A stretch of 42,093 nucleotides of DNA, from the IMG/VR virus record IMGVR_UViG_3300031463_000016, positions 1 to 42,093 of that record; one strand, 5' to 3'. The DNA comes from a virus. Under the pieces are notes generated by a model. The model was not told where the DNA came from. It did not search any database and saw nothing but the letters and a program-made list of their open reading frames with translations. Made by a program: the position numbers and the translations under genes. Positions 8,844-33,524 of this stretch are shown one piece after another; position 1 is the stretch's first letter, and each line of letters opens with the position of its first letter.

Positions 8844-8900
8844 GAATAGGTCCGCTCACCTGGTGGGCCTATTCGTCAGGGGTGGGGTTGCCCCCACCCC
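8844..8900 (-). other. Two tandem hairpins in the intergenic leader
   Basis: In the transcript of the minus strand, a perfect 9-bp GC stem with a GCAA tetraloop (8900-8879) comes first. It is followed by a GAATAGG...CCTATTC hairpin (8874-8844). No T-run follows the first stem, so it is more likely an RNA-stabilising or processing structure than a terminator. The second hairpin encloses an AATAGG sequence related to the AATAGGTC motif of other leaders. Confidence 0.65.
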
Positions 8901-17215: not shown

Positions 17216-17563
17216 TTAAATCTCTTCCAAACGGGTATATGGCTGTGTTGGTTGGCCGGGATGCGGGAAATCAATCGGCCTCAATTTGCGTGGGGTACTG
17301 GTCAGGTCAATGTGCACGCCAGGAACAAACGTCAGCGCTTCGGCGACTGCATACGATCCGTCAGGATTCCGCTGCTGCGTAGTCGCTTGCACGATGCATC
17401 CGCCGGCGACATTACAGACCTTGGTGGATTTCATCCAGCCTTGTTCCTGGGAAGAGGCTTTGCAGAGTAACGCAAACGTGTCCCCATCTCCATAAACTTG
17501 CAGGTCGGGAATGTGCTGTTTCGCCCCACGCACCTCGGTGATTTGTAAATCTTTTTCCGGCAT
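17216..17563 (-). CDS. First gene of late operon, unknown phage protein, 115 aa
   Basis: ATG at 17563 is chosen after GAGGATATT; a longer reading would run into the leader terminator. The sequence is a small mixed-fold protein with QVYGDGDTFALLCKAS and a conserved-looking TTQQRNPDGSYAVAEALTFVPG, recalling proteins found next to terS in other phages. Function unknown. It starts only 21 bases after the T-run of the leader terminator, so its expression reports read-through. Confidence 0.75.
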   Translation of the reverse strand: MPEKDLQITEVRGAKQHIPDLQVYGDGDTFALLCKASSQEQGWMKSTKVCNVAGGCIVQATTQQRNPDGSYAVAEALTFVPGVHIDLTSTPRKLRPIDFPHPGQPTQPYTRLEEI

Positions 17564-17583: not shown

Positions 17584-17627
17584 AAAAAAACGGGCTGCTT
17601 CCACCTCGAAAGGAGAGAAACAGCCCG
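17584..17627 (-). terminator. Intrinsic terminator inside late leader
   Basis: Eleven-pair stem (CGGGCTGTTTC / GAAGCAGCCCG, one G-U pair) followed by seven Ts (17590-17584). It lies about 40-80 nt after the late start point and before the first late gene, so it blocks late transcription and also ends the integrase transcript unless it is bypassed. Confidence 0.9.
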
Positions 17628-17640
17628 CTCAAAGCGAACC

Positions 17641-17648
17641 GACCTATT
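17641..17648 (-). promoter_or_regulatory. AATAGGTC leader element, late operon
   Basis: The octamer AATAGGTC is read in the leader 13 nt before the terminator stem. The same octamer stands 12 nt before the terminators at 23961 and 33447. Candidate antitermination or RNA-binding site; the role is inference. Confidence 0.5.
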
Positions 17649-17670
17649 CAGTTACGGTCCAGATAATCCC

Positions 17671-17698
17671 ATTATACCCCCAAACAAAACCATGTCAA
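17671..17698 (-). promoter_or_regulatory. Late promoter
   Basis: Perfect sigma70 boxes on the minus strand: TTGACA at 17698-17693 and TATAAT at 17676-17671, 16-bp spacer. Predicted start near 17664. It lies just after the integrase stop and reads toward terS. It is the only strong promoter seen ahead of the structural genes. Confidence 0.88.
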
Positions 17699-17710: not shown

Positions 17711-18676
17711 CTATAACCCGACCGATTTAGCAGCATTGTCCCGCCAGAGGTCGCCTTCCCGGATGTACTTGTCCAGCGTCTCCCGGCGTTTATGGCCGGT
17801 CTGACGCATGATGGTCCGGTCCCCCACCCCGGCCGCACTCGCCGCGGTGGCTAGCCCCGCCCGCATGCTGTGCCCGGAGAAGATGCCAGGATCCAGCTGC
17901 GCGCCCACCGCCGCCGCCTTCACCGCCCGCGCCACCCCGCGCCCGGAGAGCCGCCCGAGCAGCCGGCCATGCCGGTCGATACCCTGGAAGACAGCGCCGG
18001 CCGTAATCCCTGCCGCGGTGAGCCAGGCTTTGAACGCCCGCACCGGACACGTTTCCAGATTGGCCCCTTTCGGGATACCGATCAGCCTGCCCTTGCCTTC
18101 CTGGTCCGTCTTCGAGCGTCGAATGGTGATGCGCAACCCTTCCGGGCGTTCCTCGATGTCGGCCAGCTCCAGCGCCACCAGCTCCGACCGCCGGAAGGCG
18201 CCGGCAAACCCCACCAGCAGGATCGCCCGATCGCGCACCCCGTGCAGACTGTTCGGCAGCCGCATCACCATCTGCCGCAAGTCGGCCAGCAGAATCGGGG
18301 ATTTGCCCTGTTGCGCGGTCCCCACTTCGCGCCGGATCCCGGCCACCGTTGCGTCGACCATCACACTGCGGGTGGGCGGTTCCATGTCGTGCAGTTGGTG
18401 GATGTAGCGGATCGCCGCGCGCCGGCGTTCGATGGTCGACACCTTCAGCCTGCGGTCCGCCAGCGCCGCCAGGTACTCGCATACTGTTCGCACCTCCGCC
18501 GGCAGCGGGTGCAGATCGGCGTCCGCACACCAGGTACAGAAATCCGCCCAATCACCCTCATACGCTCGCCGGGTGGATGCCGCCTTGCTCCGCTTGGCAT
18601 ACTCCGCCGCCCGACTCTCCGGCACCGCTGGCGGGCTGGGGATGCTGGCCAGCACTGGAAGATGCTCGGTGCTCAT
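17711..18676 (-). CDS. int: Tyrosine recombinase (phage integrase), 321 aa
   Basis: ATG at 18676 overlaps the upstream stop (ATGA). The N-terminal SAM-like arm/core-binding domain is followed by a catalytic domain with all expected residues: Arg162 (AFRRSEL), Lys179 (RRSKTDQ), His249-x-x-Arg252 (HSMRAG), His275 (TGHKR) and Tyr284 (LDKYIRE). It would join the phage attachment site to a host site, which makes the phage temperate. The sequence has the compact form of XerC/phage or integron-like recombinases without a long arm-binding domain. attP was not identified; it should lie near 17633-17710 or 19074-19220. Confidence 0.93.
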   Translation of the reverse strand: MSTEHLPVLASIPSPPAVPESRAAEYAKRSKAASTRRAYEGDWADFCTWCADADLHPLPAEVRTVCEYLAALADRRLKVSTIERRRAAIRYIHQLHDMEPPTRSVMVDATVAGIRREVGTAQQGKSPILLADLRQMVMRLPNSLHGVRDRAILLVGFAGAFRRSELVALELADIEERPEGLRITIRRSKTDQEGKGRLIGIPKGANLETCPVRAFKAWLTAAGITAGAVFQGIDRHGRLLGRLSGRGVARAVKAAAVGAQLDPGIFSGHSMRAGLATAASAAGVGDRTIMRQTGHKRRETLDKYIREGDLWRDNAAKSVGL

Positions 18677-19008
18677 TTGTCCCTCACCATAGCGGTCAAT
18701 TCTTCCGCAGTATACACCGGGAGATCCCCGCCCCCCGGACAAGAAACATATTCACGCCCGGTGGCTTCCAGCTCCTGCCGGAATAATGGCTCTGCCGCAA
18801 TCCCTTCCGCCTCGCACAGCCGTATCAAATCGCCAAATGCCAGACTTATCTCCTTGGCGCGATCATGCATCATGGAGGCATGCCCGTCCTGTTCCCAGGA
18901 AGTCCCCGGATTGGTCGTAAATTGCGGATTCAGATCGATGATCTTCTTCGCGCGTGCAATCCGCTGCAGTGTCTCCTGCTCGCTGTTTTGTCGCCCGTCA
19001 GCGCCCAT
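18673..19008 (-). CDS. Unknown protein co-transcribed with integrase, 111 aa
   Basis: ATG at 19008 follows GGAGGGCGACATA and the stop overlaps the integrase start by four bases. The protein is helical and charged with no recognised motif. Being first in a two-gene operon with int under an operator-bearing promoter, it may be a recombination directionality factor or regulator, but it does not show a clear HTH. Confidence 0.65.
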   Translation of the reverse strand: MGADGRQNSEQETLQRIARAKKIIDLNPQFTTNPGTSWEQDGHASMMHDRAKEISLAFGDLIRLCEAEGIAAEPLFRQELEATGREYVSCPGGGDLPVYTAEELTAMVRDK

Positions 19009-19220: not shown

Positions 19221-19262
19221 AAATCCCCAAATCCGCTAATCAAGTGAATCCCGGTTCAGACA
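19221..19262 (+). repeat. Dispersed repeat A, copy 2
   Basis: Copy of the AATCC-rich element ending GGTTCAGACA, with the shared internal AATCAAGTGAATCC also found at 28631 and 33490. It abuts the T-run of the terminator. Confidence 0.85.
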
Positions 19263-19295
19263 AAAAAACGCCCCCAGCCACAGCGACCGGGGGCG
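19262..19295 (-). terminator. Terminator of the replication operon
   Basis: CGCCCCC...GGGGGCG stem (19295-19269) followed by seven Ts (19268-19262) on the minus strand, 22 bases after the stop of the 65-aa gene. Confidence 0.9.
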
Positions 19296-19529: not shown

Positions 19530-19871
19530 TCAGAGAAAATAATCATCCACCATGTCGTAAATCATGCTGCCATATTTGGCCGCAAAAAACGGCATCGCCA
19601 GGAAGAACAGCGTCAACGCCGTGGAGATCATCACGACTATCGGCGGAGACTCTTTTTTATAATGCGAACAATTACGGTTAGTACAGTGAATTTCCAGGAG
19701 TGCCCGCCCAAAGATTTTGATGCCCGGCTGGCCTTTGCCCGGTTGCAATTTCAACACGGTATGGCATTCCGGGCAGACGATTTCTTTCACCCCTTCCGGC
19801 AACGGAGTGATCATGACCGACTGATTTCCGGAGAGCGATTCTTTCACAAAGTCAAGACAAGACAATGACAT
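19530..19871 (-). CDS. Zinc-ribbon membrane protein, 113 aa
   Basis: ATG at 19871 follows GGAGG. Residues about 33-36 (CPEC) and 63-68 (CTNRNC) form a zinc ribbon like those in Com-type phage proteins. A transmembrane segment near the C-terminus (VVMISTALTLFFLAMPFFAA) anchors it. A zinc-binding domain facing the cytoplasm and tied to the membrane is unusual for a regulator. Possible roles are translation control or a membrane effect; neither is proven. Confidence 0.7.
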   Translation of the reverse strand: MSLSCLDFVKESLSGNQSVMITPLPEGVKEIVCPECHTVLKLQPGKGQPGIKIFGRALLEIHCTNRNCSHYKKESPPIVVMISTALTLFFLAMPFFAAKYGSMIYDMVDDYFL

Positions 19872-19878
19872 ACTTCCT

Positions 19879-19917
19879 CCTCTGCGAATCTCTGCGTCTC
19901 CGCGTTGCTGCGGTGAA
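19879..19917 (+). repeat. Dispersed repeat B, copy 1
   Basis: Copy of the CTCTGCGTCTCCGCG...CTGCGGTGAA element, also at 23449, 30876 and 40233. All four are in the same plus-strand orientation. Here it is intergenic between the 183-aa and 113-aa genes. Confidence 0.9.
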
Positions 19918-19923
19918 AAATCG

Positions 19924-20475
19924 TCAATCCGGAATACGCCAGAGAAATCCTAAAAAGCGCCGCGGTGGTTTCTCCACCGGCGCCGGCAGCGCTTTCGTCC
20001 ACTGCAGGCGTTCCTGCAAGGCTAGTGCATCCGCATGCATTTTGGCGATCAGCCCCTGGTGCTGTTCATTCACCCGGGTGAGCACATGAACTTCCACTTT
20101 CAACTCGACATTTTCCAGACGTAACCGTGCGAGCTCCGCCCGCTCATCCTCCGTCAGCAAGGGCGGGGAGGGCGACGCTCCCGCGGAGCCTAGTTCCTCC
20201 GCCTGGACGTCCTGGACAACCGGCGGAATGTCCTGGACATCTTCCCCTCCTGTTTCAGGGAAGGGGGCCGGGGGGGTAGGTAATTCACCGGGCAACACAT
20301 CCGGCAACAGCACCAACCACGCCCCCTCCTGCTTCACCGCCAGCAGTTCCACCTCGATCCCGGCCACGGGAACCGTGAACGGTTCCCCTTTCGCGCGCTG
20401 AATCCGCTTCGTCAGCGCGTCGAGATTCATCCCCAGCGCAGCGGCCGCATCACGTTTCGTCATCTCCCTGGACAT
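19924..20475 (-). CDS. HTH plus coiled-coil protein, 183 aa
   Basis: ATG at 20475 after GGGAGG. The N-terminus MTKRDAAAALGMNLDALTKRIQ reads as a helix-turn-helix. The middle is Pro-rich and carries a duplicated VQDIPP/VVQDVQ encoded by two copies of GTCCTGGACA. The C-terminal half is a coiled coil (ARLRLENVELKVEVHVL) ending in a basic RRFLGFLWR tail. The plan (N-terminal HTH, long coiled coil) resembles KfrA- or MerR-type DNA-binding proteins. It may be a regulator or late activator; this is inference. Confidence 0.65.
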   Translation of the reverse strand: MSREMTKRDAAAALGMNLDALTKRIQRAKGEPFTVPVAGIEVELLAVKQEGAWLVLLPDVLPGELPTPPAPFPETGGEDVQDIPPVVQDVQAEELGSAGASPSPPLLTEDERAELARLRLENVELKVEVHVLTRVNEQHQGLIAKMHADALALQERLQWTKALPAPVEKPPRRFLGFLWRIPD

Positions 20476-20531: not shown

Positions 20532-21017
20532 CTATCCCGCTTCGTCGACGAGTTCAGGATGGCAGATGGTACAGGGAAGGGTGTCATGGTGCGCGCAGAT
20601 CTGCCGGAGTTCATCGTCAGGCGGGAGAGCAAAATATTTCGAGATACTGAGAAAGCGTTGATGGCCACAGGGCGGGTACAAGTAGGTCTTGTAAAATTCA
20701 GTGTCATCGATCCAGTAGCGATCGGCCACCAGCACGAGAGGACCGAACCAGCGCAGCTGGGCGTCTGTCGTCCGCCGAATTAGATCCTGAAGACAGCCTG
20801 GGTCAGGCAAGCAGGAGTCGATACGGGGAGCAAGATAGCCAACCCCGTTGACGTGCAATTGCGTGGCCATTTGGTACAGCATGTACATCCTCGCTTCATT
20901 GCTGTACGGATTAGAGAGCATAGCGTGTATGCTATATTCCCCATCCTGCCGGTAAACTATACGTGCCTGTGCCGGTTCGAGCACAGATTCAAACTCAAAG
21001 AGCAACAGCTTGTCCAT
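20532..21017 (-). CDS. Unknown protein with C-terminal Cys/His cluster, 161 aa
   Basis: ATG at 21017 overlaps the RuvC-like stop (TGATG). The chain is mixed alpha/beta, with CGHQR near residue 118 and ICAHHDTLPCTICHPE near the end, a set of Cys and His that could bind zinc. It lies where lambdoid phages place resolvase and late antiterminator, so it is one of the candidates for the late regulator. Nothing in the sequence proves it. Confidence 0.6.
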   Translation of the reverse strand: MDKLLLFEFESVLEPAQARIVYRQDGEYSIHAMLSNPYSNEARMYMLYQMATQLHVNGVGYLAPRIDSCLPDPGCLQDLIRRTTDAQLRWFGPLVLVADRYWIDDTEFYKTYLYPPCGHQRFLSISKYFALPPDDELRQICAHHDTLPCTICHPELVDEAG

Positions 21018-21529
21018 CAAATCACCTTCCTATGCGGTGAACGTCCCCTACGGTGAACAACAAACCGCCCCTGCAACGCCGCCACCGCCCCCCCGATCGC
21101 GTCGGCGCAATGCTCCCCGTCTGGATCGGCCAGCGGGACTGCCTGCAACGGTGCCACAAACCGAAGATTCGCCATCCGGATCATCATCGGCTTCGTCGCC
21201 CGTCCGCTCCCCGTCAATGCCAGCTTGGCGGTACCGGGCGCCACTGTCCCCAGCCAGGCTAACCCCATCCGGCGGGCCATGTCTTGCAGGATGCCGATCC
21301 GCTGCAGCTGCGCCCTCCGGATGGAGTTCCCGCGTGCATCATGCCCCAACGGTTCTTCGCAACTTACCCCCGCCTGCAGGCGCACGGCGAAGGCGAAGAG
21401 GTAATCCAGCGCCTCGTCTCCCTGGTCAGTGCCAAACGCCACATCCGACCAGGCCACCAGGTGCAACCCCTGCAACACGGCGCCAGCCCCCTGCGCGCTG
21501 GGGTCGAAATACAACACGGCATCAGCCAT
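21017..21529 (-). CDS. RuvC-like Holliday-junction resolvase, 170 aa
   Basis: RNase H-fold endonuclease pattern: Asp9 in LYFDPSAQGAG, Glu58-Glu59 in CEEPLG, the loop APGTAKLALTGSGRATKPMM (compare VxPxxVKxxxTGxGxAxKxxM of RuvC), and Asp143 in EHCADAIGGAVAAL. It would cut branched DNA made during replication before packaging. ATG at 21529 overlaps the stop of the replication gene (TGATG). Length agrees with phage RuvC-like enzymes. Confidence 0.8.
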   Translation of the reverse strand: MADAVLYFDPSAQGAGAVLQGLHLVAWSDVAFGTDQGDEALDYLFAFAVRLQAGVSCEEPLGHDARGNSIRRAQLQRIGILQDMARRMGLAWLGTVAPGTAKLALTGSGRATKPMMIRMANLRFVAPLQAVPLADPDGEHCADAIGGAVAALQGRFVVHRRGRSPHRKVI

Positions 21530-22632
21530 CAGGCCACCCCCGCCAGCACTTCGCGGACGGCGTGCAGCTCGTCATCAGCAGGCCGTTCGCCATACTGGTC
21601 AATCACCGTGGTGATCTCGCGAATCATCTGCTCGATCCCGCCCCGGATGCTCGGACGTTGCAGCCGTTTGAGCAGTGCAGCGCGCGTGAGGGGTTCATCA
21701 TCGAAATACAACGCCAGGATCTCGGTGAGCTTGTGCCCGCTATCCTGGGCCAGCAGGGTCAACCGCCGGAGCTGCTCTTCCAGCGTCGGCACCCAGCGGG
21801 AGGACATGGGCAGTTCATATTGCAGGTTGGTATTCAGCCACCGGTAGCAGATCGCCACGTGGGGATATTGGAAATCCTCCGGGGTGATTTCCCGGTAGTC
21901 TTTGTCCTGGCTGGCCGGTTTGATGAGCATTGCCGGGTACGGTGGTTTGATCTTCCGTATCGGTGGCGTCAGCCCAATCATCGCCGCTGGCGACTCGGGG
22001 GCGTCAACAGGTTGGCTATCGCCCATCGAAGGAGAAAAAGACAAAGAGGGAGAAAAAAGAGTCCCGGATTCCTGTGGCCCTGTCTCGTATATAGAGCCGG
22101 TAGTATTTTGCTCAGTATTCTCTGAAGAAGTATTCTCTGTATAAGGTAGATCATTGGCGAGTTTCCCGCAAATGACCCCCGTTTCATTGGCGACTTTCCC
22201 GCAATTCCCATGTGCAGGTTTTTCGCAAATGATCCCCTCCCCTTCCACTGGATCATTTGCGACTTTCCCGCAAATGATCACGGCGTCCATCAGGGTGAGC
22301 AGCGCATCGAGGTTGAAGCGGAAATGCATGGTGGGCACCAACTTGCCGCCTCCGCCGGGCGCCTGCATCACCTGCGCATTGATGATCTTCAATTCTTGCA
22401 GTTTCAACCGGCAGCGTTCCTGCTGTGCCCGCGAAAGCGCCGTTTCCTGCTCGATCAGTGCAACCGATTTGTAAAACCAGCCGTCCGTCCGTCGCCCTTT
22501 GTTGGACCAGAAGAGGAGATGCTGGCAATAGATCGCCGTGGGGATGTCCCCCAGCGCGCGCGCCACCTCCGGGCTGTAACACCGGTTCGGCGTCATCGCC
22601 TGTTCAATCTGTTTCCGTCGTGCTTCCGTCAT
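21529..22632 (-). CDS. Replication initiator-like protein with internal origin, 367 aa
   Basis: The first 110 residues look like a winged-helix replication domain (SPEVARALGDIPTAIYCQHLLFW, then ALSRAQQERCRLKLQELKII) and are similar to the whole 111-aa upstream protein. Residues about 118-160 contain a fourfold ICGKVAND-like repeat, which is the translation of the iteron cluster. The remainder holds a Pro/Ser linker and a C-terminal helical domain. Phage replication proteins such as lambda O have this plan: an N-terminal origin-binding domain, the origin inside the gene, and a C-terminal helicase-loader contact. ATG at 22632 overlaps the preceding stop (ATGA). No helicase or primase gene is seen, so the host replisome must be recruited. 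Confidence 0.7.
   Translation of the reverse strand: MTEARRKQIEQAMTPNRCYSPEVARALGDIPTAIYCQHLLFWSNKGRRTDGWFYKSVALIEQETALSRAQQERCRLKLQELKIINAQVMQAPGGGGKLVPTMHFRFNLDALLTLMDAVIICGKVANDPVEGEGIICEKPAHGNCGKVANETGVICGKLANDLPYTENTSSENTEQNTTGSIYETGPQESGTLFSPSLSFSPSMGDSQPVDAPESPAAMIGLTPPIRKIKPPYPAMLIKPASQDKDYREITPEDFQYPHVAICYRWLNTNLQYELPMSSRWVPTLEEQLRRLTLLAQDSGHKLTEILALYFDDEPLTRAALLKRLQRPSIRGGIEQMIREITTVIDQYGERPADDELHAVREVLAGVA
22114..22279. other. Candidate replication origin: iterons and AT-rich flank
   Basis: Within the replication gene, TTTCCCGCAA-type cores occur at 22162, 22195, 22219 (variant TTTTTCGCAA) and 22264. Three are flanked by inverted arms; the best is GATCATTTGCG-7 bp-CGCAAATGATC (22251-22279), a perfect 11-bp inverted repeat. 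One side (22090-22145) is locally AT-rich and carries an 11-bp direct repeat AGTATTCTCTG (22114, 22129). This is the layout of lambda-type origins. Function is inferred. Confidence 0.65.
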
Positions 22633-22964
22633 GGCCGTGACTCCTCATCCAGCAATTTCACCAGCGGGCCAAAGTCCAGCTGTATTTCCTGTTCACCCAG
22701 CAGATTGGGCTGAATCGTGATGATGCCCAGCGCCTGCAAAAGTTGGCGGCATCGGGATTGTTCGCTCGGAAGCATGGCCGTGGTCGTATAGATGGCGTCG
22801 GCGGTGGGCATCGGTTGCAGCCCTTTCCGCCGCTCGTCGTAATGGTCGAGTAAGATCTGGTGATAGACCGCCGCCGAGATGTCGCCCCCCAGCGCCCGCG
22901 CCACATGCTGGTTATAACTGCGATGCGGCTCCAACAACATCGCCAACAACTGCTCGTGTGTCAT
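22629..22964 (-). CDS. Winged-helix paralogue of replication protein N-domain, 111 aa
   Basis: ATG at 22964 follows GGAGG. The sequence matches the N-terminal domain of the next protein over its length: P(H/N)R(S)Y...VARALG(G)DI, a middle with six-residue spacing, SEQSRCRQLLQALGIITIQ versus RAQQERCRLKLQELKIINAQ, then FxxLxxLLDxE. It lacks the linker and C-terminal domain. It could modulate initiation by sharing the origin or by forming mixed dimers. Overlaps with both neighbours (ATGA) show coupled translation. Confidence 0.7.
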   Translation of the reverse strand: MTHEQLLAMLLEPHRSYNQHVARALGGDISAAVYHQILLDHYDERRKGLQPMPTADAIYTTTAMLPSEQSRCRQLLQALGIITIQPNLLGEQEIQLDFGPLVKLLDEESRP

Positions 22965-23423: not shown

Positions 23424-23804
23424 TTAACTTAAATTTGGAATATGCATCCCCTCTGCGGACCTCGGCGCCTCCGCGTCTCTGCGGTGAAAAGATGACCGAT
23501 CCTCCACCGGCTCCCCGCGCATCGCGCCAGTCAGCACCAGCAGCACCAGACAGGTGAACCCTACCAGCACCCACTGCAGCAGCAGCCGCGACCAGTCCAA
23601 CGCCACCCCCACCGCCGGGCCATCGAGGGCGCCCTGGCTGTCCTCGATCACCGCCGGCGGGGGCACCGTGATGAGCGCATACCCGGCGGGCCGGCGCATG
23701 TGCGTCCCCACCCGATCATACGTCACACTCCACGGGGGATAGAGCCCCATCAACAGCATGACGAGTAACGCCCCATACACAAACCGACGCTGAGTACTGG
23801 TCAT
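23424..23804 (-). CDS. Small two-TM membrane protein, 126 aa
   Basis: ATG at 23804 follows GGAAGG. Transmembrane segments at about residues 7-24 (FVYGALLVMLLMGLYPPW) and 72-92 (LLLQWVLVGFTCLVLLVL), with a short polar loop between. The last 25 residues are encoded by dispersed repeat B and were probably added by its insertion. It stands alone between the replication operon and the control region with its own promoter and terminator, a place where temperate phages carry lysogeny-expressed genes; superinfection exclusion or host conversion is possible. Confidence 0.65.
   Translation of the reverse strand: MTSTQRRFVYGALLVMLLMGLYPPWSVTYDRVGTHMRRPAGYALITVPPPAVIEDSQGALDGPAVGVALDWSRLLLQWVLVGFTCLVLLVLTGAMRGEPVEDRSSFHRRDAEAPRSAEGMHIPNLS
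23449..23489 (+). repeat. Dispersed repeat B, copy 2
   Basis: Plus-strand CTCTGCGG...CCTCCGCGTCTCTGCGGTGAA. It forms the 3' end of the membrane-protein gene, encoding FHRRDAEAPRSAEG on the minus strand. Confidence 0.9.
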
Positions 23805-23885: not shown

Positions 23886-23906
23886 ATACCATGGTATACT
23901 ATAACA
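23886..23906. promoter_or_regulatory. Back-to-back extended -10 boxes around a 12-bp palindrome
   Basis: Plus strand TGGTATACT (-10 at 23895-23900) and minus strand TGTTATAGT (-10 at 23903-23898) overlap. The perfect palindrome ATACCATGGTAT (23886-23897) covers the minus start point. The minus promoter would drive the membrane-protein gene, the plus one a short leader RNA. Confidence 0.55.
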
Positions 23907-24004
23907 CAGGATCAGGACGATCCCGGTAAGCAAACCAGTCAATAGGTCGGCGATTTTTTGAAACCGTCGTGCGCCCAGCGTAGAGCTGGCGCCGGCGGTT
24001 TTTT
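23907..24004 (+). ncRNA. Candidate ~97-nt leader or small RNA
   Basis: Predicted product of the plus promoter at 23895-23900. It begins near a GGATC-AGGAC-GATCC hairpin, contains AATAGGTC at 23941-23948, and ends in the strong terminator at 23961-24004. No plus-strand reading frame of note. It could be a stable small RNA, or an attenuated leader for transcription into 24 kb and beyond. Existence is inferred only. Confidence 0.35.
23961..24004. terminator. Bidirectional terminator with AATAGGTC 12 nt upstream (plus strand)
   Basis: Stem AAACCG...GCGCC...AGC / GCT..GGCGC..CGGTTT with a five-base loop and six Ts on the plus strand; the minus-strand reading also gives a U-rich end. It closes the HTH gene at 24012 on the minus strand. 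On the plus strand AATAGGTC ends 12 nt before the stem. Confidence 0.85.
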
Positions 24005-24011
24005 GCGTTGG

Positions 24012-24251
24012 TTACGACTCGCTGTCCGTGATTTCTTTGCGCAAGGATTCGTCAACCCGCGATTTGCCGGCAGCGGCACGAAGGGTCAGCTCTTTTTCGA
24101 TACTCTCGCGGGAGACAACGGTGGCCCGTTCCCCGGCTTGCATGGCGGTAAGATGGCCTTTTTTGATCAGACGATAGATGTAGCGACGATGCAAGCCCAG
24201 AACTTCGGCGGCTTTAGAGACGGACACCCAGTCTGGTAAATCGAGTCTCAT
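24012..24251 (-). CDS. Excisionase-family HTH protein, 79 aa
   Basis: Start at ATG 24251, which coincides with the predicted transcription start, so the message may be leaderless like that of lambda cI from its maintenance promoter; a GTG at 24269 is rejected since it lies in the promoter. The domain WVSVSKAAEVLGLHRRYIYRLIKKGHL is the MerR-like HTH_17 motif of excisionases and small repressors, followed by a wing and VSRESIEKEL. It may control the divergent promoter pair. Which of the two HTH proteins is the repressor cannot be read from sequence. Confidence 0.8.
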   Translation of the reverse strand: MRLDLPDWVSVSKAAEVLGLHRRYIYRLIKKGHLTAMQAGERATVVSRESIEKELTLRAAAGKSRVDESLRKEITDSES

Positions 24252-24257
24252 AACTAG

Positions 24258-24286
24258 ATAGTAAAGCACATATGAGGCGTAGTCAA
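24258..24286 (-). promoter_or_regulatory. Leftward promoter of the switch
   Basis: TTGACT at 24286-24281 and TACTAT at 24263-24258, 17-bp spacer. Predicted start near 24251, on the ATG. Operator copy 1 lies in the spacer. Confidence 0.75.
24265..24276. promoter_or_regulatory. Operator copy 1 (CACATATGAG)
   Basis: CACATATGAG at 24267-24276, between -35 and -10 of the leftward promoter. Fits CWCATATGWG shared with copies 2 and 3. Confidence 0.65.
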
Positions 24287-24332
24287 GAGGGGTACCACTC
24301 GAATGCAGAGCAAGTTAGGGCAAATCAACCCC

Positions 24333-24360
24333 TTGACATAGGGCACATATGGGCTATAAT
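24333..24360 (+). promoter_or_regulatory. Rightward promoter of the switch
   Basis: Consensus boxes TTGACA (24333-24338) and TATAAT (24355-24360), 16-bp spacer. Start near 24367, about 70 bases before the XRE gene. Operator copy 2 lies in its spacer. Confidence 0.88.
24343..24353. promoter_or_regulatory. Operator copy 2 (CACATATGGG)
   Basis: CACATATGGG at 24344-24353 between the -35 and -10 boxes of the rightward promoter, one mismatch to copy 1. Binding here would block polymerase. Confidence 0.65.
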
Positions 24361-24373
24361 AGGAGTGATAATA

Positions 24374-24386
24374 CTCATATGTGTCC
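24374..24386. promoter_or_regulatory. Operator copy 3 (CTCATATGTG)
   Basis: CTCATATGTG at 24374-24383, the reverse complement of copy 1, just after the start point. Its centre is 32 bp (about three helical turns) from copy 2, suitable for cooperative binding. Confidence 0.65.
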
Positions 24387-24435
24387 TACCGTAGACATTG
24401 TAGCCGGTTGGCGACACAGAAAACAGGAGCATGCA

Positions 24436-24757: not shown

Positions 24758-24799
24758 GGGACGGTGCCGGCGGTCGCTCCTTCCTGCCGGCGCCGTCCC
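24758..24799 (+). other. Strong GC hairpin after XRE gene
   Basis: GGGACGGTGCCGGC pairs with GCCGGCGCCGTCCC (one G-U). No T-run follows. It may attenuate transcription, stabilise the RNA or separate XRE expression from the methylase genes. Confidence 0.6.
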
Positions 24800-24880
24800 A
24801 CCCGGGTGCTCATACCCACCGGACGGTCGAACCGGGAGCATCCGACGGCGGACAATCCGCCAGCACCTCGCATGAATCAC

Positions 24881-24920
24881 GCCTGGCCGGCACCTTGGAC
24901 ACTGGACACGCCGGCCAGGC
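24881..24920 (+). other. Perfect 11-bp hairpin touching the ribosome site of dam
   Basis: GCCTGGCCGGC (24881-24891) and GCCGGCCAGGC (24910-24920) pair exactly. The stem ends at the base before AGGGGG (24921-24926), the ribosome site of the methylase gene. Translation control by a stem adjacent to the site is possible. The loop contains TTGGACAC, like the int-operon operator arm. Confidence 0.6.
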
Positions 24921-24931
24921 AGGGGGATAGA

Positions 24932-25771
24932 ATGACGGAAGTAGCACGAAATCCAAAACCGTCCCTGCGCTGGGCAGGAGCCAAATGGACGCTGGCCAGT
25001 TGGATTGTTGGCAATATGCCCCCTCATAAGGTGTACTGCGAACCCTACTTTGGCAGTGGCGCCGTCTTCTTCACCAAGACGCCATCGAAATATGAAACCA
25101 TCAACGATCTCGATTCCCGCGTAGTGAACCTCTTCCGCGTGATGCGCGATCGGACACAGGAATTGCTCACCGCGGTGGAACTCACCCCGTATAGCCGCGA
25201 AGAATTTTACCTGAGTATGCAGCCCGAACCGCCAGACTGTTCCGAGGTGGAGAGTGCACGCCGCTTCTTGGTCCGCACCTGGATGGGATTTGGGGCGAAG
25301 GTCGCCTGCCGCAATGGCTGGCGGTGCTGTATCAGTCCCGTGGTGAACAAATACTGTCCCGATGTCTGGAACGATCTTCCAGAGCGGATCAGCGCGATAG
25401 TGCAGCGCCTGAAACATGCCCAGATCGAGTATGGCCCGGCCGTGGAATGCATTCGCCGCTATAACAAGTCAACGGAGATCCTGATCTATGCTGACCCGCC
25501 CTACCCACTTTCCACCCGCACCGACCGCCTATATTCGCATGAGATGACGGATGAGGAACACAGCGAGCTGCTGGATTTGCTGGATCGCCACCCAGGCCCC
25601 GTGCTGCTTTCGGGTTACCATTGCCAACTCTATAACGAACGGCTGTCCCATTGGAAGACACTCGAACATTCGGCGTTTGCCGAGCGTGGCAAGTCAACGG
25701 TGGAAGTCCTCTGGCTGAATCCCCGCGCCGCCGGCGCCCTCCATCCCCGCCTCTTCCAGGAGGAGAACTGA
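24932..25771 (+). CDS. dam: DNA adenine N6-methyltransferase (Dam/D12 class), 279 aa
   Basis: Start at ATG 24932 after AGGGGG. Order of motifs as in the D12 class: motif X SLRWAGAKWTLASWI, motif I VYCEPYFGSGAVFF (AdoMet binding), target-recognition part in the middle, and motif IV ADPPYPLSTRT (DPPY catalytic) near residue 188. It adds a methyl group to adenine in a short site, often GATC, though the target cannot be read. Together with the Dcm-like gene it would mark phage DNA and guard it from restriction. Stop and next start overlap by one base. Confidence 0.88.
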   Translation: MTEVARNPKPSLRWAGAKWTLASWIVGNMPPHKVYCEPYFGSGAVFFTKTPSKYETINDLDSRVVNLFRVMRDRTQELLTAVELTPYSREEFYLSMQPEPPDCSEVESARRFLVRTWMGFGAKVACRNGWRCCISPVVNKYCPDVWNDLPERISAIVQRLKHAQIEYGPAVECIRRYNKSTEILIYADPPYPLSTRTDRLYSHEMTDEEHSELLDLLDRHPGPVLLSGYHCQLYNERLSHWKTLEHSAFAERGKSTVEVLWLNPRAAGALHPRLFQEEN

Positions 25772-26199
25772 TGCCCGGACAACTGGATACCCTTGGCTAT
25801 GGCAATTTACAGACCGAGGCCTTCCATAATGCCGTCCCGGATGGCGCGATCATCGTGGATGTCCGCCGCGCGCCGGCGTGTAAGTGGAACCAGGGCTATA
25901 ACAAAGCCGAGCTGCAGCGCGCCTTTACCTTGCGCGGGATGCTCTATATCTCCCTGCCGCGGTTGGGAAATCCCTACCACACGTTGAAGGAATTCAAGGA
26001 GCACGCCGCCGAGCTCTTCGCCCAGCGCGATATCAACGCCACGCTGAATATGATTGTCGAATGGCTCAAGCTGGGCCGCACCGTGGTGTTACTCTGCGCC
26101 GAAAAAGATCACCGCCGCTGCCACCGCGACCCCATCGCCGCCGAGCTCGCCACCCGTATCTCTGGCTTGGCTGTCCTCCACCTGGAGGTGCAGCCATGA
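25771..26199 (+). CDS. DUF488 family protein, 142 aa
   Basis: ATG at 25771 follows AGGAGGAG and overlaps the methylase stop. Family features: LDTLGYGNLQTEAF at the start, VDVRRAP in the core, and LLCAEKDHRRCHR, the CAE...CHR signature near residue 112. The biochemical role of DUF488 is not known. The Cys-Glu and Cys-His pair suggest a metal or redox site. It lies between Dam and Dcm genes with overlaps on both sides, which hints at a link to nucleic-acid modification or protection. Confidence 0.88.
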   Translation: MPGQLDTLGYGNLQTEAFHNAVPDGAIIVDVRRAPACKWNQGYNKAELQRAFTLRGMLYISLPRLGNPYHTLKEFKEHAAELFAQRDINATLNMIVEWLKLGRTVVLLCAEKDHRRCHRDPIAAELATRISGLAVLHLEVQP

Positions 26200-27881
26200 G
26201 GTGGGCATCCGTCTGCAGTGGCATATCTGCCCCGTCCGTGGCCTGGGCTCCCCTGGGCTGGCGGGAGTGTTGGAGCTCGGAGATCGATCCCTTCTGCCGT
26301 GCGTTGCTGCAGTATCACTATCCGGAGGTAACTCTGTATGATGACTTCACCACCATCGACAAGCCCGAGTCAGTTGATTTGCTTATTGCCGGAACCCCCT
26401 GCCAATCCTTCAGCGTCGCCGGCCAGCGGGCGGGATTGGATGATGCGCGCGGTGTCCTGGCCCTTGAGTATCTTAAGTTGGTTGGCCGAGTCCGCCCCCG
26501 TTGGGTGGTTTGGGAGAACGTCCCCGGTGTCCTGTCGAGCTGGTCAGATGCGGAGGAAGACGAAGAAGGCAACATCTGGCAAACGAACGATTTTGATACA
26601 TTCGTCAACGCTCTGGGAGAACTCGGGTATGGGTGGGCCTACCGAGTGCTGGACGCTCAATACTTCGGAGTGGCCCAGCGCCGGCGCCGTGTGTTCGTTG
26701 TCGGATACCTTGGAGACTGGCGACCTGCCGCCGCGGTACTTTTTGAAGCCCATTGCCTGTCAGGGTATCCTGCGCCGAGCAGAAGCGCGTCATCGGAAAT
26801 TACCGGAACACTTGACACAGGCGCTGGCTGCCGTCGCGGAAAAGGAATCAACCCATCCGCTCTCTGCACCACCGCGTTAAACACTAGAGGCCAACGGAAT
26901 GATGGTACAGTAGAAACGTTCGTCATCAATCCGCTCACCACAGACCCCTATGCCGATAATGGCACGCAGGAAGATCAACTCATTGTCTTTGATACGCAGC
27001 AAATTACGAGCGCTGCGAACCGGGCAAGTGTGCGGCCAGGGCAACCGGCGCCGACGTTGAATGCCGCACCCGGCTTGCGGATTGCCGGAACACTGCCAGC
27101 ATCCGGAAAAGCCGCAGGAAGTGCGACACAACAGGATGCCGAGTGTAATTTGCTCATCAGTCATACGCTCCGGGGTGAAGGTTTTGATGCGTCGGAAGAT
27201 GGCACTGGGAGAGGAAGCCCGTTGATAGTCACACACCAATGTGCCGGGACACTCGGAAGTAATGCCCGTGGCGGATTGCGAACGACCGATCTTGATGGGA
27301 TCGGCGCGTATGTAACCGCCTTTGGATGCAAAGATTCAACCGTGGCCACTGGGAAGGATGTCTCCCCAACATTACGCGGGATGCAGCACGTCAAATCACA
27401 AGCCAATGGAGGCGGGCAAGTCGCCGTGGTCATCGGTGGGCGTGATCGTGGAGACGATGGGCGAGGGTACGGACGTGAGCCGCATATTAGCAACCTGCCG
27501 GCATGCGACGCCACTAAACCGGATAGGGTATTGGGGCCGCAGTTAGTTGTTCGCCGCCTGACGCCACGTGAGTACGAGCGCCTGCAGGGATTCCCCGACG
27601 ATTACACCCTCATCCCCACGTACCGCCGGAAAATGCGGGCCCATGAAGTGATGCAGATGGCGTGCTACCTAGGAATACCGATCGATGAAGCATGCAGGAT
27701 TGGCGCGACTCCCGATGGTCCACGCTACCGCGCTATTGGCAACAGCCAGGCCATACCGGTAATTTTCTGGATCGGTGAGCGAATAGACACTATCGAGAGG
27801 ATACTCAGTCAGATGCGATCTCCAAATAACGAATCCCAAAATCCTTTAATCCTTAAATCCTGGTTCAGACAAGAAAGGTAA
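26196..27881 (+). CDS. dcm: DNA cytosine C5-methyltransferase, 561 aa
   Basis: ATG at 26196 overlaps the preceding stop (ATGA). Motif I ASVCSGISAPSVAW, IV GTPCQSFSVAGQ with catalytic Cys, VI VWENVPG, VIII QRRRRVFVVG, IX RRLTPREYERLQGFPDD and X YRAIGNSQA are all intact. A long target-recognition section lies between VIII and IX (about 26750-27540) with TLRG/TLGSN repeats known from phage enzymes. The last residues (SQNPLILKSWFRQER) are encoded by dispersed repeat A, so the natural end probably lay earlier. Recognition site unknown. Confidence 0.92.
   Translation: MRWASVCSGISAPSVAWAPLGWRECWSSEIDPFCRALLQYHYPEVTLYDDFTTIDKPESVDLLIAGTPCQSFSVAGQRAGLDDARGVLALEYLKLVGRVRPRWVVWENVPGVLSSWSDAEEDEEGNIWQTNDFDTFVNALGELGYGWAYRVLDAQYFGVAQRRRRVFVVGYLGDWRPAAAVLFEAHCLSGYPAPSRSASSEITGTLDTGAGCRRGKGINPSALCTTALNTRGQRNDGTVETFVINPLTTDPYADNGTQEDQLIVFDTQQITSAANRASVRPGQPAPTLNAAPGLRIAGTLPASGKAAGSATQQDAECNLLISHTLRGEGFDASEDGTGRGSPLIVTHQCAGTLGSNARGGLRTTDLDGIGAYVTAFGCKDSTVATGKDVSPTLRGMQHVKSQANGGGQVAVVIGGRDRGDDGRGYGREPHISNLPACDATKPDRVLGPQLVVRRLTPREYERLQGFPDDYTLIPTYRRKMRAHEVMQMACYLGIPIDEACRIGATPDGPRYRAIGNSQAIPVIFWIGERIDTIERILSQMRSPNNESQNPLILKSWFRQER
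27825..27872 (+). repeat. Dispersed repeat A, copy 3
   Basis: AATAACGAATCCC...TTAAATCCTGGTTCAGACA. It forms the 3' end of the cytosine methylase gene and runs to the ribosome site of the Lar-like gene. It shares AATAACGAATCC with copy 6. Confidence 0.9.
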
Positions 27882-27885
27882 CCCG

Positions 27886-28404
27886 ATGGCTGAAGCATTG
27901 AAACCGTGCCCATTCTGCGGGCAAACAACCGGCTATGATCCCTCGGATGAGGATTGTGATTTTATTTGTTCGCACTGCGGAATGATCACGTTATTCGTAG
28001 GCACGCCCGAGGAGACACGCGCGAAGTGGAACCGGCGGGCATCGGATGAGCATACCGATACGCTTGATCTGATGCGGGATGAGTTCCTGCGGATCATTGC
28101 AGTGATGAAAGGGGAGAAATCTCCATATCATGACGAGGTGATCGGGATGTGTGAACGGGCGATAGCGAAGATCCACCAGCATGTGCCCGTGATCGTGCAA
28201 CGCGATATCGCCGAGCGGGATCGTGATGTGCTGCTCTGCCTCATCTACAACGCGGAAGAGCACATTCCCGCGGAATTTCTCACCGACCCGCGCCTTGAAG
28301 CAATCAAACGGAAGAATCCCAACGTGATTCCGTATAGATATCTGGAAGAGACGGAATCGCCAACTCCACCAATGACAAGAGAGGAGCAAACCCATGAACC
28401 GTAA
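27886..28404 (+). CDS. Lar-like restriction-alleviation zinc-finger protein, 172 aa
   Basis: The first 50 residues match the Lar pattern: LKPCPFCG, then ICSHCGM, and TRAKWNRRA at the end of the domain. Lar proteins of phages relieve type I restriction, by modulating host methylation. The remaining 120 residues are helical and charged and not recognised, so it is longer than typical Lar. Its site after two methylases supports an anti-restriction role. ATG at 27886 after AAAGG. Confidence 0.75.
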   Translation: MAEALKPCPFCGQTTGYDPSDEDCDFICSHCGMITLFVGTPEETRAKWNRRASDEHTDTLDLMRDEFLRIIAVMKGEKSPYHDEVIGMCERAIAKIHQHVPVIVQRDIAERDRDVLLCLIYNAEEHIPAEFLTDPRLEAIKRKNPNVIPYRYLEETESPTPPMTREEQTHEP

Positions 28405-28624
28405 GAAAAAACCAAATCTACTCACCCTCCAGCGCCAATGCGACGCCTGGAATGATCGCTATCCCATCGGCACCAAGGTGATCGTCACCAAGGACGTGAG
28501 TGGTGAAGTCGAGACGATCACCCGATCAGACGCCCAGGTGCTATCCGGCCACACCGCCGTCATCTGGCTGGAAGGCATTACCGGCTGTTATGAGCTGGAG
28601 CGTGTCCGTCCAGTGAATCCCTAA
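28394..28624 (+). CDS. Unknown small protein, 76 aa
   Basis: ATG at 28394 overlaps the Lar-like gene by 11 bases, with GAGGAG upstream. Basic N-terminus (MNRKKKPN) and a compact beta-rich part (YPIGTKVIVTKDVSGEVETITRSDAQVL...AVIWLEGITGCYELERVRPV), similar in layout to small SH3-like phage proteins. Function unknown. Confidence 0.8.
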   Translation: MNRKKKPNLLTLQRQCDAWNDRYPIGTKVIVTKDVSGEVETITRSDAQVLSGHTAVIWLEGITGCYELERVRPVNP

Positions 28625-28653
28625 ATCCCAAAATCAAGTGAATCCTGGTTCAG
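28621..28653 (+). repeat. Dispersed repeat A, copy 4
   Basis: CTAAATCCCAAAATCAAGTG...TGGTTCAGACA, following the stop of the 76-aa gene and ending just before the ribosome site of the next gene. Confidence 0.9.
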
Positions 28654-28672
28654 ACAATGAAAGGAGAACCCG

Positions 28673-29416
28673 ATTGCTGAATCATCAGCAACCCGACGAC
28701 TGATCAAATTTAAGAAGTCGAAGGATAACAAATTCCATATCGAGTTTCAGGTGATGAACCGGAAGGGCGAATGGGATCTCTACACCATGGAGTGCGGAGA
28801 ATCCCCCCACCCGGCCCTGCTGAAACAACTCGATCAATTGCGCCCCTACGTGCTGGAATTGCTCGAACTTGACAATGATCCGGTGGATCGCATCGAGATG
28901 AAGGGCGTGTCGCTCAGCTACACCGACGGCACGGACATTATGGGCGCCACCCTGATCGCCAGCCGCCGCCTGTATCAGTCCAACACGAATCAGAATGTCA
29001 CCACCGGCCATCGCTTCGAGCGCTACCCCAGCGGCCAGTCCACCGGCGATGATAAGCAGCTTCTCCCCCTCGGCTGTGCCCAGGTGATCAATGCCCTGTG
29101 CACGCTGGTCGACGGCTACATTGACGGCGACCGCGCCCAAATGACCATCGCTGACATCGACGCGCCGGCGGAGTCCACCGAGGCCGAGGGCCTGCAGGCG
29201 CTCCAGGGATTAGCGCACCTGGGCAAATGCGCGGAGCTCACCGCACAATTGTGCACCATGACCGAGCATCAACTGACCTACAGCCTGCGCATGGCCCTGG
29301 ATGCGAACGAAAACAAGCTGGCGCTGATCATCATGGACGCGATGAAGGACCGCTTCCCGGAGGCATACGGAATACTGGCCACCGAATACGCCAGAAAGTT
29401 CACCGCGGCAGCATAG
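28673..29416 (+). CDS. Unknown phage protein, apparently with ATT start, 247 aa
   Basis: The frame is open from ATT at 28673, six bases after AGGAG; the first regular starts in frame are GTG 28751 and ATG 28754, without a ribosome site. The stretch in between reads like protein (LIKFKKSKDNKFHIEFQV) and makes the first strand of a fold that recurs in phage proteins of this size (MNRKGEWDLYTMECGESPHP...). Residues HGFERYPSGQSTGDDKQLL-like loops and a C-terminal helical domain follow. The C-terminal part (AHLGKCAELTAQLC onward) looks like a separate helical domain. Function unknown. Confidence 0.75.
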   Translation: MAESSATRRLIKFKKSKDNKFHIEFQVMNRKGEWDLYTMECGESPHPALLKQLDQLRPYVLELLELDNDPVDRIEMKGVSLSYTDGTDIMGATLIASRRLYQSNTNQNVTTGHRFERYPSGQSTGDDKQLLPLGCAQVINALCTLVDGYIDGDRAQMTIADIDAPAESTEAEGLQALQGLAHLGKCAELTAQLCTMTEHQLTYSLRMALDANENKLALIIMDAMKDRFPEAYGILATEYARKFTAAA

Positions 29417-29435
29417 CGCCGGTAAGTTGTGACCG

Positions 29436-29461
29436 CCACCAGATCCCGGAGGTTCTGGTGG
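29436..29461 (+). other. Hairpin before 95-aa gene
   Basis: CCACCAGA / TCTGGTGG exact 8-bp stem with a 10-base loop, just before the ribosome site AAGGAG. Confidence 0.55.
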
Positions 29462-29478
29462 TAAAGGAGAATGAGTAG

Positions 29479-29766
29479 ATGCATGTAAAGCGATCAGAGC
29501 AAAGCACAGAATGCACCCGCGACCCGATATTTCTCTTTCAGCGCAAGGATTGGGTGGATGTTGAAATAGATGAGGAATATGGTGAGCCGAAAGAGGACAG
29601 CACTTTAGCGTGGGTGACCGAGCGCGTCTTTATGTCGCGTGCCGAGGGTGAGGCATATGGAAAAGAGCGTGAGTATGATTACCCTGACGGCTGGCGCGTG
29701 TACTGCGTTCCATGCGAAGGGCAGTTAGCGCGATTGTTAACCAAGTACGGGGATGAGGAATTGTAG
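29479..29766 (+). CDS. Unknown acidic protein, 95 aa
   Basis: ATG at 29479 after AAGGAGAATGAGTAG. Acidic protein with VDVEIDEEYGEPKEDSTL and a C-terminal YPDGWRVYCVPCEGQLARLL. The WxVYxV pattern resembles small phage proteins that add an acidic surface. No function is proposed. Confidence 0.75.
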   Translation: MHVKRSEQSTECTRDPIFLFQRKDWVDVEIDEEYGEPKEDSTLAWVTERVFMSRAEGEAYGKEREYDYPDGWRVYCVPCEGQLARLLTKYGDEEL

Positions 29767-29790
29767 CTCATTGGAAGAAAGGAGCAACCA

Positions 29791-30924: not shown

Positions 30925-30928
30925 ATAC

Positions 30929-31980: not shown

Positions 31981-32012
31981 AATCCTCAAATCCTTAAATC
32001 ATGGTTCAGACA
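31971..32012 (+). repeat. Dispersed repeat A, copy 5
   Basis: GAATCCTAAAATCC...TTAAATCATGGTTCAGACA, overlapping the stop of the HD-like gene and followed by the terminator. Confidence 0.9.
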
Positions 32013-32015
32013 ACA

Positions 32016-32048
32016 ATGCCCCGGCCACCTCCCAGGCAGCCGGGGCAT
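32016..32048. terminator. Hairpin between convergent operons
   Basis: ATGCCCCGGC / GCCGGGGCAT, exact 10-bp stem with a 13-base loop between the convergent plus-strand operon and lysis cassette. T-runs are weak on both sides, so efficiency is uncertain. Confidence 0.7.
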
Positions 32049-32603: not shown

Positions 32604-33161
32604 TTAGTGATGCGCGGCCAGGATCTCCCCCACCCGCGCCCGAAACGCCGCCCACGGATACCCCGACGGGTCCACCTTCCGATGCCCGCCGTTCTTCGTC
32701 CAGATTGCCCGATTTCCCTCAATCCAGCAGGCCACATCTCTATGCCCAACCAGCCGTGCCAATGGCAGACCGTAACGCTTCAGTAGCGTCGCGCAGAGCT
32801 GCGCGCAGGCCTCGACTTGCGCCGCCGGCCAGGGTTCATCGCCCAGGTTCTCCTGCTCGATGCCCAGCGAGAACGCGTTGCACCAGAGCTGCCCGTTCCA
32901 ACACGATTCCCCGGCATGGAAGGCGATGGTGTCGGTGGGCACCATCTGCCGGATGGCGCCGCTTTTGTCGATGTAGAAGTGGACGGAAACCTTTGTGTCA
33001 GTCTCGCCCATCAAGGTGGGGATGTCGCCGGCCGCATGGCCCCCGGTGTGATGCAGCACAATGATCTGGGGCTTGCCCTTGAATTTGTCCCCCAGGTACT
33101 TCGCATACTTCGGAAACGCCACCGGCACCCCGTCAAGCAGTGTGATTTGACTCACGATCAT
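32604..33161 (-). CDS. N-acetylmuramoyl-L-alanine amidase (Amidase_2), endolysin, 185 aa
   Basis: Cuts the lactyl-amide bond of peptidoglycan. IIVLHHTGG carries the first zinc His, SVHFYIDKSGAI the core strand, FSLGIEQEN, then LVGHRDVA with another zinc ligand and the RKVDPSGYPW end of the site. No cell-wall-binding domain or signal peptide, so it depends on holin for export. Start at ATG 33161 with GGGAG close by; a GTG at 33155 is an alternative. It overlaps the holin-like gene by 29 bases. Confidence 0.9.
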   Translation of the reverse strand: MIVSQITLLDGVPVAFPKYAKYLGDKFKGKPQIIVLHHTGGHAAGDIPTLMGETDTKVSVHFYIDKSGAIRQMVPTDTIAFHAGESCWNGQLWCNAFSLGIEQENLGDEPWPAAQVEACAQLCATLLKRYGLPLARLVGHRDVACWIEGNRAIWTKNGGHRKVDPSGYPWAAFRARVGEILAAHH

Positions 33162-33387
33162 TCTCCCTTCGACAAATATCATCCATGGAGTGTTGGAGCG
33201 ACTGCAGACTGTGTTCAATGGCTTTGAAACTGGCTGACCATTGCACCACAAAGTCCATCAGCTTCTCTTCGCGGGCTTTGGCATCATCCAGTACCTGCTT
33301 CATGAACTGACGACCAATGAGCAGGATCAACACGGCCAGTCCAAAACCACCATATTTCGAGACAACCTCGATCAGTCCAGCTTCCAT
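33133..33387 (-). CDS. Single-TM holin-like protein, 84 aa
   Basis: ATG at 33387 after GGAGGTACGG. N-terminal transmembrane segment (YGGFGLAVLILLIGRQFM) followed by a charged amphipathic C-terminal helix (DDAKAREEKLMDF). This is the form of BhlA/UviB-like and other class III small holins. First gene of the lysis cassette, directly after the leader terminator, and coupled to the amidase by overlap. Confidence 0.7.
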   Translation of the reverse strand: MEAGLIEVVSKYGGFGLAVLILLIGRQFMKQVLDDAKAREEKLMDFVVQWSASFKAIEHSLQSLQHSMDDICRRENDRESNHTA

Positions 33388-33403: not shown

Positions 33404-33447
33404 AAAAACGGCGTGTCCACCCTGGTGTCCCAGGACAAACACGCCGT
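33404..33447 (-). terminator. Terminator in lysis leader
   Basis: Nine strict pairs ACGGCGTGT / ACACGCCGT, extended inward by G-U and G-C pairs to about 18 pairs with a four-base loop, followed by five Ts (33408-33404). It stands 17 bases before the holin ATG, so lysis genes need read-through. Confidence 0.85.
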
Positions 33448-33459
33448 CCAAAACGACAT

Positions 33460-33467
33460 GACCTATT
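33460..33467 (-). promoter_or_regulatory. AATAGGTC leader element, lysis cassette
   Basis: AATAGGTC ends 12 nt before the lysis-leader terminator, the same arrangement as at 17641 and 23941. Candidate antitermination site; inferred. Confidence 0.5.
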
Positions 33468-33518: not shown

Positions 33519-33524
33519 GAATCT

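Follow-up and report, generated by a model that had tools for sequence, protein, structure and literature searches.

What is the role of the octamer AATAGGTC in the leader between a strong promoter and the first late gene of this phage, and why should the same octamer recur ahead of terminators elsewhere in the genome? The window, by which we mean the whole 42,093-base contig that was analysed, has an exact 127-bp direct terminal repeat (1-127 = 41967-42093), and thus corresponds to a complete, circularly mapped genome of ~41,966 bp; its G+C content is 60%. The phage is temperate, and its gene content includes an integrase, excisionase-like and HTH_3 regulators, an O-like replication protein, a RuvC-like protein, terminases, portal, capsid, a 2847-codon giant ORF, an amidase endolysin, and several methyltransferases. 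The giant late ORF, on the minus strand, spans the contig-end junction, and the circular map provided by the terminal repeat therefore takes the late operon from 17563 to 1, on from 42093 to 33525, and then through an octamer and terminator into the holin and endolysin genes.

Several other organizational features were observed. The region at 24258-24390, between the excisionase-like and HTH_3 genes, is probably the lysogeny switch; it contains divergent promoters at 24286 (minus) and 24333 (plus; early operon), and three copies of a CACATATGAG-like sequence were noted, at ~24269, ~24345 and ~24374. The early operon (24764-31390) codes for two DNA methyltransferase-like proteins, a DUF488 protein, a Lar-like antirestriction protein, a DUF5131 protein, and a PHROG 3193 protein. 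Within the O-like replication gene, at 22149-22279, there are several ~27 bp repeats of the CATTTGCGACTTTCCCGCAAATGA type, both direct and inverted, which by analogy with lambda O are likely to form an iteron-type origin; the O-like protein and a 111-aa protein encoded just upstream (21529-22964) resemble paralogues at their N-termini, and a 58-nt repeat is present at 22534 and 22872. Two families of dispersed repeats are also evident. Members of one, ~47 bp long and of the type GTCTGAACC..GATTCACTTGATT..GGATT, are located at 19222-19268, 27831-27877, 28616-28662, 31963-32016 and 33477-33523 and are mostly intergenic, the last of them lying between the stop codon of the giant gene and the lysis copy of the octamer; the other, of the type CTCTGCG-TCTCCGCG-TCTCTGCGGTGAAAA, is found at 19879-19919, 23450-23490, 30877-30917 and 40225-40273, partly within genes. 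A check for an att site overlapping a tRNA revealed no tRNA near the integrase.

The octamer AATAGGTC occurs five times in the genome (0.57 expected), a count reached in none of 100 shuffles, at 17641-17648 (-), 33460-33467 (-), 23941-23948 (+), 8845 (+) and 34787 (+). A search for hairpins followed by T-runs identified four terminators below -20 kcal/mol, at 17630 (-), 33448 (-), 23960 (+) and 19295 (-). Three of these, with energies of -26.8 (late), -30.4 (lysis) and -29.3 (plus) kcal/mol, are the strongest T-tailed hairpins in the genome and each follows an octamer; the fourth, at 19295 (-22.3 kcal/mol), has none. The octamer ends 10 nt (late) or 11 nt (lysis and plus) before the closing pair of the terminator, and is separated from the start of the T-run by 50, 51 and 50 nt, respectively. 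The first-pass annotation had placed the octamer before terminators at these three sites, and the association proves to be stronger than it stated; the constancy of the spacing that it described also holds, with a length of 10-11 nt instead of the 12-13 nt given there.

Its suggestion that chance is less likely is borne out as well. When the 60 nt upstream of eight terminators were subjected to dinucleotide shuffling, 5000 shuffles produced not one case of an 8-mer common to at least three terminators at a single offset (+/-1), and the same was true of as many as three 6-mers shared in this manner; ignoring the offset, an 8-mer was held in common in 12 of 5000. None of seven other phage genomes treated by the same procedure has an 8-mer common to three terminators at one offset. 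From the genome count, the shuffles and the seven control phages we reject a chance origin of the octamer-terminator pattern.

The two remaining copies lie elsewhere. That at 34787 (+) falls inside the giant minus-strand ORF. The copy at 8845 (+) was rejected as an example of the element, being an arm of a hairpin of its own with no T tail and on the strand opposite to the late mRNA. This strong hairpin, AATAGGTCCGCTCACCTGGTGGGCCTATT (8845-8873), adjoins a GGGGTGGGG..CCCCACCCC hairpin and is positioned just upstream of the gene at 8833-8474, where the late mRNA shows the complement, GACCUAUU.

The late leader is arranged as the first-pass annotation described, with promoter, octamer, terminator and first late gene in that order. 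A consensus scan found a TTGACA-16-TATAAT promoter with perfect hexamers (12/12) at 17671..17698 on the minus strand, and the octamer (17641..17648, minus strand), 22 nt from the -10, occupies approximately +16 to +23 of the late transcript. The stem-loop and T7 tail of the leader terminator (17584..17630, minus strand) end ~20 nt before the first late ATG. The first late gene (17216..17563, minus strand) encodes a 115-aa product with no function assigned, which has up to 81-86% identity, over part of its length, to proteins in Firmicutes-type phage contigs; genes for the small and large terminase subunits are next. An ACCG arm further upstream in the late leader could pair with CGGT in the spacer, and is absent from the other copies.

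The lysis copy of the octamer (33460..33467, minus strand) follows the giant late gene (stop codon at 33525) by ~60 nt and precedes a stem-loop and T5 terminator (33404..33449, minus strand). The first gene behind it (33133..33387, minus strand) codes for a small membrane protein that is a probable holin, having a weak PHROG match and preceding the endolysin, an N-acetylmuramoyl-L-alanine amidase (32604..33161, minus strand) that matches PHROG lysis families with E-values to 1e-24. The octamer and terminator of what had been called the lysis leader are present, but no promoter was recognisable at this copy, which on the circular map is inside the late operon, between the giant-gene stop at 33525 and the holin.

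The third copy (23941..23948, plus strand) precedes a stem-loop and T6 terminator at 23960..24004 on the same strand, and lies ~40 nt from a candidate extended -10 promoter, TGGTATACT (23892..23900, plus strand), which is a sequence match with no good -35. Here too the octamer and terminator exist as the first-pass annotation had them, but no sense gene lies directly behind its plus-strand leader. A transcript that passed the plus terminator would first run antisense to the gene at 24012..24251 on the minus strand, which encodes an excisionase/HTH_17-like regulator (Pfam HTH_17, 4e-9; NCBIfam excise, 2.9e-9), and only beyond that gene could it arrive at the promoter of the early operon (24333).

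When the three elements were folded to a consensus, the first structure given was not the terminator but a hairpin spanning bases 8-28, which starts at the last base of the octamer and in which the spacer pairs with the terminator's 5' arm. All nine pairs of this helix form in the late and lysis copies, around a UUG loop, and eight of the nine in the plus copy, around a UUUG loop; a simple terminator scan also flags the same two hairpins. The late antiterminator hairpin, CGGTTCGCT-TTG-AGCGGGCTG (17621..17641, minus strand; 9/9 pairs, -10.0 kcal/mol), leaves bases 1-7 of the octamer unpaired, and its 3' strand doubles as the terminator's 5' arm. The corresponding lysis hairpin is CATGTCGTT-TTG-GACGGCGTG (33440..33460, minus strand; 9/9 pairs, -8.9 kcal/mol), and that of the plus copy is CGGCGATTT-TTTG-AAACCGTCG (23948..23969, plus strand), which is weak (8/9 pairs, -4.0 kcal/mol). 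The plus copy is the weakest of the three, with one mismatch and a stability that, taken alone, is no better than that of shuffled sequences. The antiterminator and terminator hairpins are mutually exclusive in all three elements (9/9, 9/9 and 8/9 pairs, in the same register). The distance from octamer to terminator is therefore fixed because the alternative hairpin begins at base 8 of the octamer and uses the terminator arm.

Such pairing is rare in control sequences. Random genomic spacers placed between the octamer and the real terminator reach it with frequencies of 0.00044 (late), 0.00073 (lysis) and 0.0024 (plus). A 9/9 helix in any register is found at only one of 36 control terminators from seven other phages, and terminators of this genome that have no octamer form only five and six pairs in any register.

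The late and lysis elements can be aligned from the octamer to the U-run with a score that is matched in none of 500 shuffles, and this likeness makes a common origin possible. The two copies may be duplicates, in which case the spacing does not represent three independent events. The differences between them are nevertheless informative. All 18 of 18 cells of the antiterminator are paired in the late-lysis comparison, with three pairs differing at both positions and two at a single position, and pairing falls to 33-56% when the partner is slid by one to three columns; the covariation shuffle control is weak with two sequences (54 of 500 shuffles). Bases 25 and 26 are shared by both hairpins, and are G25 C26 in the late copy and C25 G26 in the lysis copy. 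Their antiterminator partners change from U11 and G10 (late) to G11 and U10 (lysis), and their terminator partners from C55 and G54 (late) to G56 and C55 (lysis), so that the matched changes preserve both of the mutually exclusive helices. Judged from two to three sequences only, this preserved pairing in both helices appears to be the mark left by selection for a switch.

Folding of successively longer prefixes shows the antiterminator appearing at base 28 (late and lysis) or base 30 (plus), to be replaced by the terminator from approximately base 56-60. In the complete element the terminator is the more stable form, by 12.3 (late), 8.5 (lysis) and 11.4 (plus) kcal/mol. When a covariance model was derived from the three elements and run on the genome, it recovered exactly those three (E-values of 2e-14 to 3e-12), and everything else was noise.

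We consider it probable that a single RNA attenuator, ~65 nt long, is present at the three sites, and that read-through is released by a factor that binds its antiterminator form. What can be read directly from the sequence is the motif with its spacing, the pair of mutually exclusive hairpins and the compensatory changes in both; the manner of operation that we propose is conditional. The element would consist of AAUAGGU, the 9-bp antiterminator (bases 8-28/29, UUG loop), the rest of the strong terminator, and the U-run, in that order. The antiterminator would form first during transcription, and the terminator, being more stable by 8.5-12.3 kcal/mol, would then displace it, making termination the default. 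Because the terminator is clearly favoured at equilibrium, read-through would require something that holds the antiterminator in place. A factor, most likely a small phage protein from early lytic growth, would bind the unpaired AAUAGGU together with the antiterminator hairpin, and would keep the terminator stem from reaching the U-run, resulting in read-through. Such control would act at each site on its own, on the late operon, on the lysis cassette that ends that operon, and on the plus-strand transcript directed toward the early operon. AAUAGGU, with the U-rich loop, is the sole strictly shared and unpaired sequence, and its natural reading is thus as the recognition site of an RNA-binding factor; that every controlled terminator has its own copy, one of them inside the late operon, favours local attenuation over processive control. 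Counted against a switch is that the terminator wins at equilibrium, so that nothing is gained without the factor. A cis-acting antitermination site, the kind of element postulated in the first-pass annotation, is therefore still the best reading, but a free-standing octamer at a fixed distance gives way to an overlapping antiterminator hairpin.

Known local attenuators provide the closest parallels. RAT is a short hairpin that overlaps the 5' arm of an intrinsic terminator at the controlled site, the two being mutually exclusive (PMC3369936, PMC9981650), and in both LicT/BglG RAT and ANTAR systems the bound antiterminator shortens the terminator stem and parts it from the U-run (PMC3369936). 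The element described here shares with the RAT leaders (BglG/LicT/SacY) an antiterminator hairpin that is mutually exclusive with the terminator. However, the RAT stem has two asymmetric internal loops and RAT controls sugar genes, whereas here the helix is an uninterrupted 9 bp (late and lysis) with a UUG loop, and is fronted by an unpaired AAUAGGU; no CAT_RBD protein (PF03123) was found in the phage genome by a search that gave matches in control genomes. As in the ANTAR leaders (nasF, amiE, eut), the antiterminator overlaps the proximal arm of the terminator, and several leaders with the same element form a small regulon (eutP, G, S, A), but ANTAR requires two hairpins, P1 and P2, with A1/G4 in their loops, and here there is a single hairpin with UUG or UUUG. 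An ANTAR (PF03861) search gave no match in the phage, and none in the control set either; hmmscan of the early proteins likewise detected no ANTAR. The element would work like RAT and ANTAR leaders, yet by the form of its hairpin belongs to neither. Comparison with the Rfam 15 covariance models gave no match at gathering scores, just noise with E-values of 0.2-10, in agreement with the first-pass annotation, which did not recognise the octamer and its spacing as a known site, and among the papers listed in a literature search none described AATAGGTC in a phage leader.

Processive antitermination of the lambda Q/AlpA or put type, in which RNA polymerase would be altered near the late promoter by a factor or by the RNA itself, with the octamer acting as a loading or pause element, is an unlikely alternative, although it has attractions. 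A strong late promoter with an intrinsic terminator at once behind it and the late operon beyond is the arrangement at lambda pR' and in Q and AlpA systems, the octamer is at ~+16 to +23, the late operon is long with a second terminator ahead of lysis, and other phages with a related first late gene (L013-L015) also have a terminator leader. But the DNA element that loads Q and AlpA is located between the -35 and -10 (PMC7969949), and the octamer keeps a constant distance to the terminator, not to the promoter (22 and ~40 nt from the -10 in the late and plus copies, with no promoter seen at lysis). AlpA acts independently of terminator sequence, and the present element goes with each individual terminator. 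Under processive control so many copies would be needless, the antiterminator complementarity would be left unexplained, and no Q family protein (PF06530, PF03589) was found in the genome, although a very divergent Q could escape the search. HK022 put is similarly an RNA element near the start of a phage transcript that overcomes intrinsic terminators, and acts over at least 10 kb (PMC9378689). It is ~70 nt long with two stem-loops and works on RNA polymerase with no protein factor, whereas here the hairpin belongs to the very terminator that it would prevent; no such layout is seen in the element, whose main stable folds are the antiterminator and the terminator that overlaps it. Since each controlled terminator carries its own copy, local attenuation resembling RAT and ANTAR fits better than the lambda nut/qut or HK022 put type with which the first-pass annotation drew a comparison.

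Three other explanations are still less probable. The element might simply strengthen or insulate termination, as a copied terminator cassette with a pause or factor site and no regulated read-through; all three terminators are very strong, and the late and lysis elements are alike beyond the octamer (above 500 of 500 shuffles), as copies of a cassette would be. We regard this as improbable, since a permanent stop between a promoter with perfect hexamers and the first late gene, only ~20 nt from the latter, would shut off the virion genes, and the compensatory changes preserve the antiterminator as well as the terminator. A DNA-bound antiterminator at a fixed distance from the terminator, with the octamer as all or part of its operator, has a precedent in AimR of the SPbeta-group phages, which in phi3T acts on one nearby terminator and loses function upon a change of distance (PMC10769878), and the spacing is constant in this phage as well. 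The operator bound by AimR is DNA, however, and the evidence here points to RNA pairing, which a DNA-bound factor would leave unexplained; the octamer is not palindromic and has no second half-site in the three copies, so that we think this quite improbable. Slightly less credible again is translation-coupled attenuation, with AGGU as a weak ribosome-binding site, the UUG of the loop starting a leader peptide, and the ribosome opening the terminator. Each of the three copies has TTG at position 17 or 18 of the element; the frame that begins there continues open into the first late gene in the late copy (138 codons), runs for 93 codons in the plus copy, and stops after 17 codons, just beyond the terminator, in the lysis copy. 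Against this, AGG and UUG are ~10 nt apart, the match to the 16S tail is short, the three frames encode no common peptide, and GGAG-type sites precede the ATG in many genes of this phage.

Returning to the RNA attenuator released by a binding factor, we recognised no known antiterminator protein in the genome. The early proteins encoded at 20532-21017, 19924-20475, 18673-19008 and 19530-19871 gave no informative match to the library families, and AlphaFold models of two early proteins, made with no alignment, had pLDDT values of 42 and 53. The factor may be of host origin.

Relatives of the phage are distant. Searches of viral_contigs with the large terminase subunit gave nothing closer than relatives at 37-38%, and with the portal, the capsid and a 161-aa early protein gave no relatives; the terminase search of genome_contigs gave no confirmed relative, and in a sample of 398 genomes the best matches were 45-53% over part of the length. 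The octamer was rejected as a general viral terminator motif, none of 239 octamers examined preceding a T-tailed hairpin better than -13.2 kcal/mol. Two pattern scans of 2.9 million viral contigs for an octamer with a T-run at the distance seen here returned 73 and more than 118 stretches, with no octamer-plus-terminator among the matches listed, and an excess at one gap length is attributable mostly to one homologous coding sequence. The covariance model gave matches at chance level only in 60 relative loci and in overlapping samples of 398 and 299 genomes, the best match outside this phage (L259, E = 0.005) having no octamer, and the element was absent from the distant relatives of single genes that were examined. 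Three contigs with relatives of the first late gene (L013, L014 and L015) have a leader with an intrinsic terminator, upstream of position 3001 and with no octamer; L013 and L014 have a promoter-like stretch too, and the sequence upstream of the terminators is unrelated. Leader terminators thus appear to recur before the first late gene, and the octamer element seems so far to be peculiar to this phage. Another first-late-gene relative, the Firmicutes-type phage L247, has terminators at 5969, 8166 and 8311 that share a near-identical stem-loop, (G)CAGTTAGCTTTTGCTAGCTGCT, and one of these three is preceded, in addition, by an overlapping hairpin of 9 bp.

Nature has supplied the element in triplicate, with compensatory differences, and it is thus well suited to direct testing in plasmid reporters. 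A tentative extension is that the late and lysis genes are run, in place of a single processive antiterminator as in lambda, by a small regulon of terminator-local switches, all answering to one undescribed phage RNA-binding protein that recognises AAUAGGU and the UUG-loop hairpin; we think this somewhat doubtful. To our knowledge, the lambda-like phages studied so far control their late genes by processive modification of RNA polymerase. A separate RNA switch for each transcription unit would, if true, be another means of timing virion assembly and lysis; it would give lysis a gate of its own where the late operon ends, and would suggest a new antiterminator protein that binds RNA.
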